This document shows positions 18,449 to 26,800 of a stretch of 64,000 bases of DNA, piece by piece. Made by a program: the position numbers and the translations under genes. The first letter of the stretch is position 1, and each line of letters opens with the position of its first letter. Origin of the DNA: Pyrinomonas methylaliphatogenes (GTDB lineage Bacteria > Acidobacteriota > Blastocatellia > Pyrinomonadales > Pyrinomonadaceae); assembly GCF_000820845.2 (NCBI RefSeq), contig NZ_CBXV010000007.1, positions 82-64,081 of the forward strand, read 5' to 3'. The notes under the pieces are model-generated. The model had not been told where the DNA came from and ran no database searches. It worked only from the letters and a program-made list of their open reading frames with translations.

Positions 18449-21400
18449 TCAGAATGAAACTCGCAAGCTGAGCTGAACTTCGCGCCCCGGCGTCGCCGCT
18501 TCCGTGATGGTGCCGAATTGCGGCGTGTTGACGAACCGGTTCGGCGTGCCGAGGTTGGTATGATTGAGCGCGTTGAAGAGTTCGGCGCGGAACTGCAACC
18601 GCAGCTTCTCCGTCAAATTGAAATCGCGTTGTAAGGCGAGGTCGAGCGTCTGTAAGCCTGGGCCGTAGACCGAATTCCTTCCCACGTTGCCGAAAGTATA
18701 CGCCGGCGGAGTGGTGAAAGCATCGGGATTAAACCACCGATCGGCTGTGCGCGTGCCTGGACCGAAGACTGGTTGCCCCGTGTAGTTGGCGCGAATCGGA
18801 TTGTCGCCGAGCAGCGTTCCAGCGTTGGCCGTATCGCCGAAGACCGAGATGGTGAACGGATATCCTGTTTGGGCTTGGTAGATGGCCGAGATCCGCCACT
18901 CGCGGGCTAGCGTCTGCAACCAACCGGAGCGGCCCCAAGCGGGGATGTCATAAACCAAGCTCAACGCAAACCGATGACGTATGTCACACGCTGGACCTTT
19001 CTCCGCCGCAAGGTTGGAGTTGTTCTGCGGGAGCGGAGATTCGGACATCGGCGAACGAAAGTCGGGCGCATCGCTCAGATTCTTCGACCAAGTGTAATTG
19101 GTCAAGAAGGTCAGACCGCGCGCGTAGCGTCGGCGGACGTTAACGTAGCCAGCGTTGTACCAACTCTGCGCCGAGTTTTCGAGCAGGTTGATGCTGCTCA
19201 CGGGGAAGGTCGTGCTGACCACCTTGACGTTGTCCGGAATAACCGTGCCCGGGACGAAGCTGATCGTCTTATAGGGGCGCCGTGGTCCGATCGGCCCCGG
19301 TCCGGGCGGCGCGTTGTTGATCAAGTGGGCGCGTTGCAGATGAACGCCGTGCGAACCTAGGTAGCCGAGTTCCAACGTGGTCGTTGAGCTGAGGCTTTTT
19401 TCGACCGAAAGGCTCCATTGCTGAATGTACTGGGCCGGAGCATGCGGTTCGAAGGCGGCGAAGCTGACCACCGTCTGGCCCAGCACCGGATCGGCGAAGT
19501 TGAAATGCGAGGCGATCAATGCCGCCGAAGGGATGAAGTTATCGCTCTGCTGCGTTTCGGGGAAGACGTACGGGACGTTGTGCCGTTGATTGCACCACGT
19601 GTTCATATCCACCGGGGTGAAGAAGATGCCGAAAGCCGCATGCACGACGAAGCCATATCGCGGGCTGTGGTGAGATAAACCGACGCGCGGCGCGAAATTG
19701 AGCTTATTCGGATAGAGCAAGCCTTTAGGATAGCCCTGTTGGCCACCGATGAAGGCCATCAATTGGCCGTCGCGAAAGATGAGGTTCGAATTCGTGTAGC
19801 GAATATCGCGCAGCGGGCTCATGTACTCGTAGCGTAGCCCAAGCTGTAACGTCGTGTTGCGCGTAAGCTGAAAGCTGTCCTGGATGAACGCATCGGCGTA
19901 CCACTGGCGAAGCTGCATCTGCGGAATGCCCGCTTGCCGCTGCTTGACGACAGGCAAGCCGAGAAGGAAACTGGCGAGCGCCGAACCCGTGCCGTCGTTC
20001 GTTCCGGTGCGCGTCGTAAACCCGCTCGTGAACTGGTAATAGCCGCGATTCTGGAAGAAGCCCCACATGGGCCAGATGTAGTAGCGGAAGCTACCGCCGA
20101 ACTTCAGGCTGTGGCGCCCTTTTTGCCAGCTCAGCAGATCGCGCAGTTCGAGCAACGTGTCCCAAGCGCGCGTCGGCGTGGCGAGATACTGGTCGCCCAT
20201 TGGCGTGTAGCCTTGTACCTGAAAATATGGCGCGCCCCAGGCTCCTGGTCCGCCGAAACCGACGCCGCGAATGCCGAGTTCGCTAACGATGTCGTTCTTG
20301 TCGCTGTTCTCCGAGTAGCGATGCATCGCCAATCGGCTGATGGCGATGGCGGCCATGTTGACCATGTTCGGATTGAAGATGTGGTTCCACGCGATGTTGC
20401 CGTGCTGCGAGAGGTTGTCATGGAAAGCGCCGAAGCCGGGGAGCCCTTCTGGCGTGAAGCCGCGCTCCTTTCCGAAGGAGTAACGGAAGAAGAGCGTATC
20501 GCCTTGGTTGAAAGTATGATCTATGCGGAACGTGCCTTGGTCGTTGTGGTGCCGCTCGTTGCGCACATCCAAGTAGTTATTGCAATCCATCCCTTGACCG
20601 ACGACCATCGGCGCGCCCATCATCGTCATCGCCATGTTGCACATGCCCATCTCCAAGTTCGGGCGGGGAACATACTTTCGCAGGAAAAGCGCCGCCGCTG
20701 GATCGATCAGCTCTGGTGGGATGACGTTATTGGGAAATGGGTCGCGGATGATCTGCGGGTTGTTGGGGCTGACCGGTTTCGTCGGGTCGAAGTTCGGATT
20801 CGGGCGCGTCGTAAATGGATTGTAGATGGTCGTCCCGCTCATGCTGAAATCGCCCATGATCTCCTCTTCGGTCGGGACGGTGAGGATCTGTGTGATCGCG
20901 CGCGTGTGCCGCAGCCCCTCGTAGTTTGCGAAGAAGAAGGTCCGGTTCCGAAGGATCGGACCGCCGAGCGAGCCGCCGAAGTTATTTCGCACGAGATGTT
21001 TCGCCCCTTCCATCTCATTGAACGTGCGCGCATCGAGCGCGTCGTTGCGCAGGAAGTTGTAGATCGTGCCATGAAATTCGTTCGTCCCGGTGCGCGTGAC
21101 GATATTAATCTGTCCGCCGCCGGCGCCGCCCATCTCGGCTGAATAGCTTCCAGTCTGAACCTTGAACTCCTGCACGGCGTCAGGCGAGGGCATGAAGTTG
21201 GGCGTGTTGAAGGTCGGATCGGTGTTCGTGCTGCCGTCGAGCAGATAGTAGTTCGCGTTCGGGCGGTTGCCGCTGATCGTCAGAGCGGCGCGCTGGCCCG
21301 GTCGCCAATAGAGCGGATTGGCGTTGCCAGCTTGCGCGCCATGCCCGGCGTGCGCTCCCGGGACGAGGAGCACGAGATCCGTGAGCAAGCGCCCATTGAG

Positions 21401-21832
21401 CGGCAGATTGCTGATCGCCGTCGGTTCGACGACCTCGCCGACGCTCGCATCGTTCGTGCGTAATACTTCGATCTGAGCCTGCACATCGACCGTCGTGCTG
21501 ACAGAAGCGAGATTGAGCTTAAGCTCGAGCGTCATCTGTTGCCCGACCTCGAGGCGCAGATTCTGGACCAGCGGAGCGAATCCCGTGGCCTTCACCGTCA
21601 GCGTGTAATCGCCGGGAAGCAGACCAGTGATTTGAAACATGCCTTGCTCGTTGGTGGTCACTTCGCGCCTCGTCCCCGTGCTCTGTGAAACGAGTTGTAC
21701 GGAGGCGCCCGCGATGACCTGCTGTTGCGGATCGAAAACGCTCCCGCTCAGGACCGCGTAATTGCTCTGCCCGAATGCTGGCAGCGCCGCCATCGAGCAG
21801 AGGATCAGGGATAGAAAGATGAGGCTGCGCAT
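18449..21832 (-). CDS. Oar-like TonB-dependent outer-membrane receptor with Met-rich loop
   Basis: The 1127-aa receptor has a signal peptide (cleavage near FGQSN), a carboxypeptidase-regulatory domain (about 25-105), a plug (LPLNGRLLTDLVLLVPG, then QEFKVQTGSYSAEMGGAGGGQ, NIVTRTGTNEFHG) and a barrel ending LSLRVSF. Around residues 388-418 there is an unusual run with eight or more Met between two Cys (GMCNMAMTMMGAP... GMDCNN), suggesting metal (copper?) or disulfide chemistry in a surface loop. The ATG at 21832 has GGAGA 7 nt upstream; the longer frame is less likely. Its upstream region holds a 19-bp hairpin (21899-21947) and a direct-repeat operator (22047-22067). Confidence 0.9.
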   Translation of the reverse strand: MRSLIFLSLILCSMAALPAFGQSNYAVLSGSVFDPQQQVIAGASVQLVSQSTGTRREVTTNEQGMFQITGLLPGDYTLTVKATGFAPLVQNLRLEVGQQMTLELKLNLASVSTTVDVQAQIEVLRTNDASVGEVVEPTAISNLPLNGRLLTDLVLLVPGAHAGHGAQAGNANPLYWRPGQRAALTISGNRPNANYYLLDGSTNTDPTFNTPNFMPSPDAVQEFKVQTGSYSAEMGGAGGGQINIVTRTGTNEFHGTIYNFLRNDALDARTFNEMEGAKHLVRNNFGGSLGGPILRNRTFFFANYEGLRHTRAITQILTVPTEEEIMGDFSMSGTTIYNPFTTRPNPNFDPTKPVSPNNPQIIRDPFPNNVIPPELIDPAAALFLRKYVPRPNLEMGMCNMAMTMMGAPMVVGQGMDCNNYLDVRNERHHNDQGTFRIDHTFNQGDTLFFRYSFGKERGFTPEGLPGFGAFHDNLSQHGNIAWNHIFNPNMVNMAAIAISRLAMHRYSENSDKNDIVSELGIRGVGFGGPGAWGAPYFQVQGYTPMGDQYLATPTRAWDTLLELRDLLSWQKGRHSLKFGGSFRYYIWPMWGFFQNRGYYQFTSGFTTRTGTNDGTGSALASFLLGLPVVKQRQAGIPQMQLRQWYADAFIQDSFQLTRNTTLQLGLRYEYMSPLRDIRYTNSNLIFRDGQLMAFIGGQQGYPKGLLYPNKLNFAPRVGLSHHSPRYGFVVHAAFGIFFTPVDMNTWCNQRHNVPYVFPETQQSDNFIPSAALIASHFNFADPVLGQTVVSFAAFEPHAPAQYIQQWSLSVEKSLSSTTTLELGYLGSHGVHLQRAHLINNAPPGPGPIGPRRPYKTISFVPGTVIPDNVKVVSTTFPVSSINLLENSAQSWYNAGYVNVRRRYARGLTFLTNYTWSKNLSDAPDFRSPMSESPLPQNNSNLAAEKGPACDIRHRFALSLVYDIPAWGRSGWLQTLAREWRISAIYQAQTGYPFTISVFGDTANAGTLLGDNPIRANYTGQPVFGPGTRTADRWFNPDAFTTPPAYTFGNVGRNSVYGPGLQTLDLALQRDFNLTEKLRLQFRAELFNALNHTNLGTPNRFVNTPQFGTITEAATPGREVQLSLRVSF

Positions 21833-21898
21833 AGCACTATCTCCGTTAAGTATCGATAATCGCGCTTGGCCCTTATCGGCCTTGGGTTGCCAAAAGGG

Positions 21899-21947
21899 GA
21901 TGATTCTTGCTCGATCGTCTTTGTCGATCGATCGAGCAAGAATCATC
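21899..21947. promoter_or_regulatory. 19-bp perfect inverted repeat upstream of the TonB receptor
   Basis: The left arm 21899-21917 (GATGATTCTTGCTCGATCG) is exactly complementary to 21929-21947, with an 11-nt loop. It starts 67 bp before the receptor ATG, so it falls in the 5' leader or promoter. It could be a transcription attenuator, an operator or a leader RNA element. No T-run follows on the minus strand. Confidence 0.7.
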
Positions 21948-22046: not shown

Positions 22047-22067
22047 GGTTATAACTTTGGTTATAAC
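22047..22067 (-). promoter_or_regulatory. Bipartite direct-repeat operator, copy 1
   Basis: Two GGTTATAAC 9-mers lie 12 bp apart (22047-22055 and 22059-22067), separated by TTT. The same arrangement occurs at 22951-22971. A reversed AACCAAAG lies just before (22029-22036). It is 215 bp upstream of the TonB receptor start. The 12-bp pitch, about one helix turn, suits a dimeric regulator. Confidence 0.5.
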
Positions 22068-22156: not shown

Positions 22157-22269
22157 CAGAGCAGGTTTAAAATCTCTATCCCATTTGCCTGAAGCTCGCG
22201 AGAGCGATGTCAATCTCGAGCGATTCACGCGCAGAGCAGGTTTAAAATCTCTATCCCATTTGCCCGAAG
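22157..22269. repeat. Locus-specific repeat-spacer-repeat (period 75)
   Basis: Two 38-bp copies (22157-22194 and 22232-22269, core AGCAGGTTTAAAATCTCTAT) differ at one position and flank a unique 37-bp spacer (22195-22231). The second copy stops 2 nt short of the stop codon of the AhpD-like gene. Confidence 0.9.
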
Positions 22270-22271
22270 GA

Positions 22272-22835
22272 TCACCGGCCCACGCCGAGCGCATCGGCGA
22301 CGCGGTTAATATAGTTGAACCATGCCGCGATCAGCGTTATCTGCAGGATCGCCGTATCATTGAACCCGACCTTGCGAAGTCGTTCGTGGAACTCGGGCGT
22401 GATCTGTGTCGCATCGCGCGTCAGTTGCTCGACGTACTCGCACATCGCCCGTTCGGCTTCGGTGATGGGCGCGCGACGATAATCTTCGCGCAAGGCTTCG
22501 ACCAGTTCATCGTCCAAGGTCACTCGCCGCAGAAACTCTGCGTGAGAGGTCAGTCAATAGTGGCAGCGGTTTGTGGCTGACACTACGGTGGCGATCATCT
22601 CGTGCTGTCTGCGCGAGAGCGGCAGCTCCGGCGACATCAACGCGCTGAAGGTGGAGAAGGCGTGATAGAGCGCGTGTGGAATGAGCGTATGCGAGGAGAT
22701 GATCGATTCGTTGATCGGGCTCGCTTCGGGAACGGGAGTTTCGTATTCGCGGGGATAGGAAGCGCGAACTTCCTGTAGAATCCGCCGCAGCTCTTCGTCT
22801 GCGTTCTCAAAAGGTATGGTTTCGATCCAAGCCAT
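22272..22835 (-). CDS. AhpD-like peroxidase-related protein, probable selenoprotein (in-frame UGA)
   Basis: The frame from 22835 runs 93 codons to a TGA at 22556-22554 and continues open in the same frame for 93 more codons. Both halves belong to one carboxymuconolactone decarboxylase/AhpD-type protein of 187 residues: NRCHY-[UGA]-LTSH. Homologues have CxxCxxxH here, so UGA stands exactly at the resolving Cys (C91-x-x-U94-x3-H98). A hairpin at 22523-22546 has SECIS-like form: 8 paired bases with a small internal loop, apical loop AGTTT with G in the second place, 16 nt after the UGA. Known AhpD-like selenoproteins exist. The alternative is a nonsense mutation. selA, selB and selC are not in the window. 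Confidence 0.75.
22523..22546 (-). promoter_or_regulatory. Candidate bacterial SECIS element
   Basis: On the minus strand, directly after the in-frame TGA, CTC-CGCAG pairs with CTGCG-GAG around the loop AGTTT. The UGA-to-loop distance (16 nt) and the G among the first two loop bases agree with what is known for bacterial SECIS elements. Confidence 0.6.
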
Positions 22836-22950: not shown

Positions 22951-22971
22951 GGTTATTACTTTGGTTATAAG
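22951..22971 (-). promoter_or_regulatory. Bipartite direct-repeat operator, copy 2
   Basis: GGTTATTAC, TTT and GGTTATAAG repeat the arrangement seen at 22047-22067 (two mismatches in 21). It lies 116 bp upstream of the AhpD-like start, directly after the response-regulator stop codon. The encoded NarL-type regulator is the obvious candidate binder, but this is inference. Confidence 0.5.
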
Positions 22972-22972
22972 T

Positions 22973-23608
22973 TCAGTCGAGATGGATAAGACCGTGTTGC
23001 AGGGCGAAGATGGCGGCTTGCGTGCGATCGCTTACGCCCAGCTTGCTCAGTATGTTGTTGACATGGATCTTCACCGTCCCTTCGCTGACATGAAGCGCGG
23101 CGGCGATCTCTTTATTGCTCTTACCATCGACGATCAGGCGTAGAACTTCCATTTCGCGCGCCGTCAGTTGATCGCGGTTCATCCGTTCGGCCAGCCGCGT
23201 GGCGATCTCTTCGGGGATGCGGCGGAGTCCGGCATGCACGGCGCGGATCGTCTCGAGCACGTTCTCGCGCAGCATGCTCTTCAGCAGATAGGCGCGGGCG
23301 CCGGCTTGCAGTGCGCGGTAGATGTCCTCATCGCCATCGTAAGAGCTGAGGACGATCAAACGGGCGTCGGGGAATTCGCGGCGGATGAGCGCGATCGCTT
23401 CGATCCCGTTGACTTCCGGCATGCGCAGATCCATCAACGCGATGTCGGGTCTATGCTGACGGAAGAGTTCGACGGCCTCCTTTCCCGTCGAAGCCTCTGC
23501 GACCACGCTCATATCCGGTTGGGTGTTGATGAGGGCGAGGAGTCCCATGCGGACCACGAAGTGGTCATCGGCGATCAGTATGCGTATGCGCTGTCTCTCT
23601 TTGCTCAT
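22973..23608 (-). CDS. NarL/FixJ-family response regulator
   Basis: The 211-aa protein has an N-terminal receiver domain (IADDHFVVRMG, phospho-acceptor Asp60 in IALMDLRMP, switch Lys in YLLKSM) and a C-terminal LuxR-type helix-turn-helix (LTAREMEVLRLIVDGKSNKEI, then VSEGTVKIHVNNILSKLGVSDRTQA). Its start lies 9 nt after the kinase stop codon, so the two form a two-component pair. Likely targets include the neighbouring AhpD-like and TonB genes, which share a direct-repeat site. Confidence 0.95.
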   Translation of the reverse strand: MSKERQRIRILIADDHFVVRMGLLALINTQPDMSVVAEASTGKEAVELFRQHRPDIALMDLRMPEVNGIEAIALIRREFPDARLIVLSSYDGDEDIYRALQAGARAYLLKSMLRENVLETIRAVHAGLRRIPEEIATRLAERMNRDQLTAREMEVLRLIVDGKSNKEIAAALHVSEGTVKIHVNNILSKLGVSDRTQAAIFALQHGLIHLD

Positions 23609-23617
23609 AAGGGCGGT

Positions 23618-26600
23618 TCAGGTGATCGGAACTGTGACTTTGACTTCCGTCCCCTCGCCGGGACGGCTACTGATCGCCAGTTGGCCTTTTATCTGTTTGG
23701 CGCGCTCGCTCATGTTGAGCAGACCGAAATGGCCGTTTCGGGCGAGCAAATCGTTCTCGGCTAAATCCCACCCGCAGCCATCGTCTTTGACGCGCAAGAT
23801 CACTCGCTGCGGTTCGAAAGAGAGCTCGACGTCGATCCGTCGCGGGCGAGCGTGTTTGATGGCGTTCGTGATGGCTTCTTGCCCGATCCGCAGCAGGTTG
23901 CTTTCGACCGATTCAGCGAGGCGGCGCGGTGATCCGCTGATGTGCATCTCGACCTGAACGGTTGTGCCCGACGTCAGCCTCCGGGCGATTTCGGAAAGCG
24001 CCTCCGCCAGATTGCCGTTCTCAAGGATCGGCGAGCGTAGATCCCAGACCAAACGGCTGGCTTCGGCAAGGCTGTAGCTTACCATACGTTGCGCGATTTC
24101 GAGATGCCTCTTCGCCATTTGAGGCGATTCGGCGAGCGCTTTTTCCATCGCCTCGAGTTGCAATCCGATGCCGACGAAACCCTGTGCGAGCGCATCATGG
24201 ATTTCGCGCGCCATGCGGTTGCGCTCGGCGAGCACGGCGGCAAAGCGCGCCTGCACTTGTTTGAGGCGCAACCGGTAGATGAACCAACCGAGCAGCAGAA
24301 TCGCCACGCCGAGCAGCGAGTAGAACCAGAGCGTTTGATAGAAACGAGGTTTCAAGTGAAAGGCGAAGGATGCGCCCGCTTCGTTCCATATGCCGTCGTT
24401 ATTACAGGCGATGACGCGAAACTTGTAGTTTCCGGGCGGAATGTTCGTGTAGCTTACGGTGCGCTTGGTTCCGGCGTCGATCCAATCTTTGTCAAATCCT
24501 TCGAGCTTGTACTTGAAACGCACCTTCTCCGGGGCGGCGAAGCTCAGTCCCGTATACTGGAATTCGATCCTGCTGGTGTTAGCAGGAAGCTCTGCGCGCT
24601 GCGTCGGATCATAGGCGGTGCCGTCGGCGATCACCTGTTCGAGGACGACCGAAGGGGGCGTGCGATTGATCTTCATGCTTTCGGGCGCGATGACGGTCAC
24701 CCCCTTCATCGTTGGGAACCAGAGCCGTCCGTCGGCGCTTCGCCAGCCCGCCGGTTGGCCTCCATTGCATTCGCGGCTTCCCATCCCATCTTCCGTCCCA
24801 TAGGAGATGGAATGGATCGCTTCGATCTTCCCTTCGGCGAAAGCGTTGAGTTCTTGGCGGTTGACGCGGAAGATACCTTTTGCGCAACTCATCCACAGAT
24901 TGTTCTGCTCATCTTCTAAGATCTGATAAACGCAATCATCGGCCAATCCCTCGCGCGTCGTGTAGCTGGTGAGGCGCCCATCTTTGAGACGATTCAATCC
25001 GCCCCTTCGCGTGCCGATCCACAGCGCGCCTTCACGATCGCGATAGATCGCTCGCACGTTGTTATCGGATAATCCTTGCTCGGTCGTGTAGGCTGTGAAT
25101 TTCCCATCTTTGAAAAGATTCAAGCCGCCGTTGCGCGTGCCGATCCACAAAGCGCCATCTGGAGTCGATTGGATCGCGAGCACCGCATCATCAGAGAGGC
25201 CATCGCTTGTCGTGTAGATCGTGAATTTGCCGCCTTTATATCGTGTAAGACCGCCGAGCGTGCCGATCCATAATTGACCATTCGAATCTTCATGAATGGC
25301 CCATATCGCGTCGCTCGATAGCCCGTCCTGAACGGTGTAGGTCCTGAATCGACCATCTTTGAAGCGCACCAAACCGCGAGGAGTGCCGATCCACAGCGCC
25401 CCTTCGTGGTCTTCGCAAAGCGCTCTGACCGTGTTGCTCGGAAGCCCGTCCTCGGTCGTGTAGACTGCGATGGAGCCATCCTTGAAACGGTTCAAGCCAC
25501 CCGACTGCGTGCCGATCCAAATGCTGCCATCATGGCTCTGGTACACCGTCCAGACCATGTCGTCGGATAACCCATCGCGCGAGTCATAGGTGATGAACTT
25601 GGTATCTTTGAAAACGTTCAGTCCGCCCGCTTCGGTCCCAACCCATAGATTGCCTTCGCGATCTTCATAGATCGCTAGGATGACGTTGTTGGAAAGCCCA
25701 TCGCGAGCGGTGTAGACATCGAACCTGCCATCTTTGAAGCGCGTCAATCCTCCCGCCGTCCCCAACCAGAGATTGCCGTCGCGGTCTTCGCGGATCAGCA
25801 TCACGCTGTTGTCAGAAAGGCCATCTCGCGTCGTGTACGAGATCAATCTCCCCTCTTTGAAGAGACACAGACCGCCGTCGGTGCCGATCCACAAATTGCC
25901 CGCGTGATCTTCGCACAGCGCCCAGACCATGTTATTGGCGAGACCATCTTTGGTCGTATAGGTCGTGAAGCGGTCGTCTTTGAAGCGGACCAGCCCGCCC
26001 GACGTGCCAAACCATAGATCCCCATCGCGACTTTGCAAAACCGCCGTCACCGTCCCAGCGGGGAATCCGCTTTCGATCCCGTAGGTGGTGAATCGTTCGC
26101 CATCGAAGCGGGCCAACCCGCCGCTCGTGTTGATCCAGAGGGAGCCAGCGCGATCCTCATACACGGAGTTGATGCTGTTGCTTGGCAAGCCGTTTTTGAT
26201 CGTATAGACATCGAAGCGCCCGTCCCTGAATCTGTTGAGCCCATTCAGCGTTCCTACCCAAATGTCCCCTCGATGGTCTTCGTAGATCGATCGAATGTTG
26301 ACGTTCGATAGCCCTTCCGCTGTGGAATAGCAAACGAACCGCTGATCTTTCAGGCGGACCAGTCCCTTATCCGTACCGATCCATAGATTGGCCTGCCTAT
26401 CTTCGTAAAGGACCTGAATGTTGTTGCTCCTTATCGCGGCGGTGTTCTGTTTATCGAAGACCGTGAAATGTAACCCGTCGAAGCGAACGAGCCCTTCATC
26501 GGTCGCCAACCAGATGTAGCCATCGCGGGTCTGCAGTATATCGCGCACGGTGTTTTGTGGCAGACCGTTCTCGGCCCGCCAAACGTCATGGATGTATTGA

Positions 26601-26692
26601 GCGATCTTCCGATCGGGCGCGAGGGCGAATATCTGTCTGGTCACGAGGGCGAGACAGGCGAGGCAGATCGCTTTTCTCGAAACGCTTCTCAT
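23618..26692 (-). CDS. Reg_prop-type sensor histidine kinase
   Basis: The 1024-aa kinase has a signal sequence, then 14 tandem Reg_prop blades of about 42 residues with the pattern ED-x2-G-x-LWIGT-x-GGL-x-RF, enough for two seven-bladed propellers. A Y_Y_Y domain follows (about 690-765: RFKYKLEGFDKDW), then one transmembrane helix (LLGVAILLLGWFIYRLRL), a HisKA_3 dimerisation helix with the phospho-His in REIHDALAQG and an ATPase domain (EAITNAIKHARPRR, DDGCGWD). It has no receiver domain. The periplasmic propellers resemble Bacteroidetes glycan sensors, so a secreted or surface ligand is likely. The ATG at 26692 is chosen for the signal peptide. Confidence 0.92.
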   Translation of the reverse strand: MRSVSRKAICLACLALVTRQIFALAPDRKIAQYIHDVWRAENGLPQNTVRDILQTRDGYIWLATDEGLVRFDGLHFTVFDKQNTAAIRSNNIQVLYEDRQANLWIGTDKGLVRLKDQRFVCYSTAEGLSNVNIRSIYEDHRGDIWVGTLNGLNRFRDGRFDVYTIKNGLPSNSINSVYEDRAGSLWINTSGGLARFDGERFTTYGIESGFPAGTVTAVLQSRDGDLWFGTSGGLVRFKDDRFTTYTTKDGLANNMVWALCEDHAGNLWIGTDGGLCLFKEGRLISYTTRDGLSDNSVMLIREDRDGNLWLGTAGGLTRFKDGRFDVYTARDGLSNNVILAIYEDREGNLWVGTEAGGLNVFKDTKFITYDSRDGLSDDMVWTVYQSHDGSIWIGTQSGGLNRFKDGSIAVYTTEDGLPSNTVRALCEDHEGALWIGTPRGLVRFKDGRFRTYTVQDGLSSDAIWAIHEDSNGQLWIGTLGGLTRYKGGKFTIYTTSDGLSDDAVLAIQSTPDGALWIGTRNGGLNLFKDGKFTAYTTEQGLSDNNVRAIYRDREGALWIGTRRGGLNRLKDGRLTSYTTREGLADDCVYQILEDEQNNLWMSCAKGIFRVNRQELNAFAEGKIEAIHSISYGTEDGMGSRECNGGQPAGWRSADGRLWFPTMKGVTVIAPESMKINRTPPSVVLEQVIADGTAYDPTQRAELPANTSRIEFQYTGLSFAAPEKVRFKYKLEGFDKDWIDAGTKRTVSYTNIPPGNYKFRVIACNNDGIWNEAGASFAFHLKPRFYQTLWFYSLLGVAILLLGWFIYRLRLKQVQARFAAVLAERNRMAREIHDALAQGFVGIGLQLEAMEKALAESPQMAKRHLEIAQRMVSYSLAEASRLVWDLRSPILENGNLAEALSEIARRLTSGTTVQVEMHISGSPRRLAESVESNLLRIGQEAITNAIKHARPRRIDVELSFEPQRVILRVKDDGCGWDLAENDLLARNGHFGLLNMSERAKQIKGQLAISSRPGEGTEVKVTVPIT

Positions 26693-26800
26693 CGTTCGAC
26701 CCGCGCTATGCCGGCTTTGCTCGCAAGCTAGACAAAGTGTAACGGGAAGGCCGATTGAATGCAATCATCCCGGATCTGAGGCGAGAGGGCTTGGCCTAAA

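Follow-up and report, generated by a model that had tools for sequence, protein, structure and literature searches.

Does the TGA that interrupts an AhpD-like reading frame of Pyrinomonas methylaliphatogenes end the protein, or is it read as selenocysteine (Sec)? The frame lies on the minus strand at positions 22272–22835 of the window, by which we mean the whole 64,000-nucleotide stretch of DNA that was analysed. It opens with an ATG at 22835 and comprises 93 codons, a TGA at codon 94 (22556–22554), another 93 codons and the real stop, a terminal TGA at 22274–22272; the initial annotation had described it without the strand. Read through, it encodes a peroxidase-related protein of 187 aa with U94.

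As had been anticipated, ORF calling cuts the gene into two in-frame pieces, one of 93 aa (22835–22554) and one of 83 aa that begins at an internal GTG (22523–22272). The claim that a single frame spans two CMD/AhpD halves and is broken only at codon 94 also holds, as stops occur in the read-through frame at codons 94 and 188 only. The read-through protein reaches 118.4 bits against the NCBIfam model TIGR01926 (curated cut-off 81.8 bits), below which either half by itself falls, and it passes Pfam CMD, whereas both halves fail that cut-off. The latter result argues against two genes or a regulated truncation, in which a 93-residue N-terminal product would be accompanied by an 83-residue internal product started at GTG 22523. 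Such an arrangement would match the split drawn by ORF callers, and at low selenium most ribosomes may indeed terminate at the UGA. However, the halves lie in frame with constant spacing in homologues, and the exchange between Sec and Cys falls at the UGA itself, so that we regard separate products as highly unlikely. With 67.8 bits against NF041238 (AhpD_rel_CFYUT, cut-off 175) and 45 bits against NF053654 (YciW-related (seleno)protein, cut-off 310), the window protein stays below the thresholds of both these families.

Codon 94 (22554–22556, minus strand) forms the second position of a CxxU motif, C91-H-Y-U94, and, when compared with solved AhpD-like structures such as 2oyo, 2pfx and 6k40, falls on the second Cys of NRCxYCxxSH. 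Among 80 homologues fetched from one-genome-per-species contigs, it is TGA in 70 and TGC or TGT in the remaining 10, with no other codon and with no second in-frame stop in the matched stretches. Those with TGA span at least eight phyla (Acidobacteriota, Planctomycetota, Gemmatimonadota, Armatimonadota, Chloroflexota, Poribacteria, Zixiibacteriota and KSB1). Of the 29 matches that were read in related genomes, 28 likewise carry TGA at this codon, and the last one has Cys. The expectation that homologues have Cys where the TGA stands was thus borne out, with position 94 occupied by Sec or Cys only across the alignment. Its putative redox partner, Cys91 (codon TGC, 22563–22565, minus strand), is Cys in 98/98 Sec genes.

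These comparisons bear on whether we are dealing with a pseudogene, created by a recent nonsense mutation of TGC or TGT to TGA, or with an error that sequencing or assembly introduced at the second Cys. A single substitution would suffice for such a change, and the window represents a single assembly. Against this, about 98 homologues, drawn from many phyla, share the TGA at this codon, and the frame is otherwise undamaged. Purifying selection acts on both sides of the TGA, including the part downstream of it: pN reaches at most 0.23, pS ranges from 0.08 to 0.89, and pS is well above pN in every pair. Because the TGA is conserved across phyla and both flanks are constrained, decay and sequencing error are excluded in practice, and we consider this explanation very improbable.

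Sec requires dedicated machinery, whose absence the initial annotation had named as evidence against its own proposal. In the genome examined (3.79 Mb, 99.5% complete) we found all four components: selA (563 bits), selB (388 bits, above its cut-off), selD (366 bits) and selC, the tRNA-Sec (75.8 bits by Rfam). The anticodon loop of the tRNA reads CUUCAAA, and its anticodon is therefore UCA; ARAGORN missed this tRNA, which Rfam detected in the same genome. More broadly, selA exceeds its cut-off in 58 of the 60 genomes searched, and every genome with a Sec copy has it. The selD gene of P. methylaliphatogenes (C8:653036–653962) contains its own in-frame TGA, in the context SYAGUVAKL, and is thus a second selenoprotein gene. 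Matches to formate dehydrogenase in the same genome have no in-frame stop and offer no second line of evidence.

The complete Sec machinery also speaks against reading of UGA94 as Trp or another amino acid, through an alternative code or a suppressor. The frame would be open under such codes. However, UGA is the terminal stop of this very gene, as it is in 46 of 86 Sec homologues, which indicates that the genetic code is unchanged; moreover, homologues otherwise carry Cys alone, at a catalytic position. We therefore judge reassignment to be extremely improbable. UGA94 is almost certainly read as Sec in this AhpD-like gene, and the sequence data imply that Sec would be incorporated in the cell.

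The initial annotation also placed a stem-loop with G in its apical loop 16 nt beyond the TGA. This hairpin is real, and the distance is about right. A bacterial SECIS-type element lies within the coding sequence at 22523–22548 (minus strand), with a 6-bp upper stem, CGCAGA/UCUGCG (22542–22537 paired with 22533–22528), and an apical loop GUU. The G of the loop, at 22536, is the 18th base after the UGA, and in 98/98 Sec genes the apical loop begins with a G. The window stem has six of the seven common pairs, since codon 103 is CGG and not CGT. By folding energy the window hairpin does not stand out, as 1571 of 5000 synonymous randomisations matched its stability; its significance comes from comparison.

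In Sec genes, codons 98–103 are frozen relative to the rest of the same genes. Thus, GCA is used in 70/87 (10% elsewhere), GAG in 97/97 (53%), TTT in 82/90 (33%), CTG in 82/97 (36%) and CGT in 80/95 (9%); binomial p-values for this freeze are too strong, because related sequences are not independent. In the 98 Sec genes, codons 95–97 and 105–106 are at background and codon 104 is mildly biased. Averaged over Sec genes, the folding minimum lies directly after the TGA, and the stem is lost in most Cys homologues. The sharp boundary at the stem, together with this loss, points to selection on the RNA, and these patterns support an RNA-level constraint on the stem-forming codons of Sec genes. The evidence from codon freeze is new here.

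Eleven Planctomycetota Sec homologues (L079, L081–L083, L087, L090, L092, L093, L095, L099 and L100) have a stem other than the common ACGCAGA/UCUGCGU and seem to use alternative pairings. The Rfam model SECIS_1 found no match in the P. methylaliphatogenes genome; it was also silent in all 14 controls and is therefore uninformative. No Rfam family matched the window.

The AlphaFold model of the protein is helical and confident (pLDDT 91.5), and the top Foldseek matches in the PDB, with TM of about 0.8, are 6k40 (alkyl hydroperoxide reductase AhpD, TM 0.81), 2pfx, 3c1l and 2oyo. In mutagenesis by Koshkin and colleagues, the catalytic, deprotonated Cys of M. tuberculosis AhpD was reportedly Cys133, which forms its disulfide with Cys130. 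The proton relay of that enzyme consists of Glu118, Cys130, His132, Cys133 and His137 (PMC3141380). In the window protein E79, C91, Y93, U94 and H98 match Glu118, Cys130, His132/Tyr50, Cys133 and His137 with identical spacing. Glu79 (codon at 22599–22601, minus strand) is conserved in 98/98 Sec genes, and His98 (22542–22544, minus strand) in 98/98 Sec genes as well as in all Cys homologues. As codon 94 maps to Cys133, Sec94 occupies the catalytic position. This agrees with the observation that only Sec or Cys stands at position 94, whereas position 91 is Thr in 8 Cys homologues. The description of codon 94 as the site of the resolving Cys had to be reversed: the C-terminal Cys of the AhpD CxxC is the catalytic one, and the resolving role goes to Cys91.

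We propose the following mechanism. SelB carrying Sec-tRNA(UCA) would bind the hairpin just past UGA94, and the ribosome would insert Sec there and continue to the terminal UGA. In the resulting all-helical enzyme Sec94 would serve as the catalytic nucleophile, assisted by an AhpD-type proton relay of Glu79, Tyr93 and His98, and Cys91 would resolve the oxidised selenium (Se-OH) as a Se-S bond. The protein may act in hydroperoxide reduction or as a thiol/selenol redox adaptor; we infer that a peroxide is the substrate and that its reduction proceeds through Se-OH and the Se-S bond with Cys91. No ahpC exceeded its curated cut-off in the P. methylaliphatogenes genome, and clustering of gene neighbourhoods across loci found no conserved operon partner; in 23 of 93 loci an APC-type permease is encoded no more than 3.5 kb away. 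Taken as a whole, the explanation that this is a functional AhpD-like gene of the TIGR01926 type, with hairpin- and SelB-directed Sec94 as catalytic nucleophile, is in our opinion very probably correct.

The novelty implied for an AhpD-like selenoprotein does not extend to the family, which has already been catalogued. AhpD-like CxxU selenoproteins were first reported from Sargasso Sea data as 27 sequences of COG2128 with SECIS elements shown (Zhang et al. 2005, PMC1088965). In the GOS data, "AhpD-like 1" was abundant, with 299 sequences (2008, PMC2398784), and TIGR01926 with CxxU is named in Table 1 of a 2026 review in AEM (PMC13188914). The window gene belongs to this AhpD-like CxxU TIGR01926 family known since 2005, sharing with it the domain family (TIGR01926/COG2128), Sec at the second CxxU position and a SECIS-like hairpin directly downstream. 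This member is new: earlier sequences were marine or metagenomic, whereas its nearest named homologues are from Acidobacteriota, and it carries a particular version of the motif. NF041238 (the "hypothetical protein 1" of the Sargasso Sea) likewise comprises AhpD-related CxxU selenoproteins, but these are longer (357 positions), and since the window protein misses the family's cut-off, we treat it as a sister family. Like the window protein, the Cys enzymes AhpD of M. tuberculosis and PA0269 of P. aeruginosa adopt the helical fold of AhpD and keep the Glu/Cys/(His or Tyr)/Cys/His relay at the same spacing, but they have the catalytic Cys where the window protein has Sec. Its chain is much closer to TIGR01926-type structures (6k40, 2pfx, 2oyo and 3c1l) than to classical AhpD (1gu9, E 0.03).

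The surroundings of the gene contain a 20-nt motif in two copies, both located without assignment to a strand. One, GGTTATTACTTTGGTTATAA, lies at 22951–22970, about 116–135 nt upstream of the ATG of the Sec gene, and the other, GGTTATAACTTTGGTTATAA, at 22047–22066, upstream of a TonB/Oar-like gene (18449–21946). Allowing up to 2 mismatches, the motif GGTTATWACTTTGGTTATAA has exactly two copies genome-wide, both in this locus, and its expectation in shuffles of the window is 0. A two-component pair, a response regulator and a sensor kinase (22973–23608 and 23618–26764), adjoins the copies. The motif is a candidate regulatory site and possibly a shared operator; that it co-regulates the Sec gene locally with the TonB/Oar-like outer-membrane gene is a guess. 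The paired motif at a Sec locus is new here.

Other repeats were seen nearby. Just downstream of the Sec gene there is a 38-nt direct repeat (22157–22194 and 22232–22269, 97% identical and 75 nt apart), whose 31-nt core has no other copy in the genome. The TonB/Oar-like gene has at its 5′ end (21899–21947) an inverted repeat of 19 nt without mismatches, GATGATTCTTGCTCGATCG, whose arms are separated by 11 nt. A likelier start of that gene is at about 21832, with the signal peptide MRSLIFLSLILCSM.

The Cys homologues form several lineages in the tree. Eight TxxC proteins (L067, L071, L074, L075, L076, L080, L084 and L096) make up one clade (support 97/92) nested among CxxU proteins, a single origin that is new here; in six of the eight, position 90 holds an additional Cys (NCTxYC), which might be a shifted resolving Cys. 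L032 and L085 are two other, separate Cys lineages, and an apparent third CxxC protein, L037, is an artefact, as its row shows a paralogue from the opposite strand; the genuine L037 has TGA. Since the tree was rooted at the midpoint, the direction of the change between Sec and Cys is only inferred. The Cys homologue L032, from Latescibacterota, retains a complete SECIS stem, ACGCAGAGTTTCTGCGT, which is probably a fossil of a recent Sec-to-Cys change. A joint reading, in which a single exchange of Sec and Cys at position 94 was coupled to the replacement of Cys91 by Thr in the TxxC clade and the 20-nt motif co-regulates the Sec gene with the outer-membrane gene, is tentative and in our view rather doubtful. 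If it is true, the TxxC clade (Planctomycetota, Armatimonadota and Acidobacteriota) would need a different resolving step, with one Cys or a shifted Cys, and Sec and its resolving Cys would form a coupled evolutionary unit.

Ordinary ORF calling cuts this gene in two; the analysis confirms it as one, and indicates that codon freeze can tell a Sec UGA from a stop without folding energies. Where Acidobacteriota and Planctomycetota carry close homologues of this TIGR01926 subfamily, these are predominantly of the Sec form, and the Sec, Cys and Thr variants offer a natural series for asking why selenium serves at the AhpD nucleophile.
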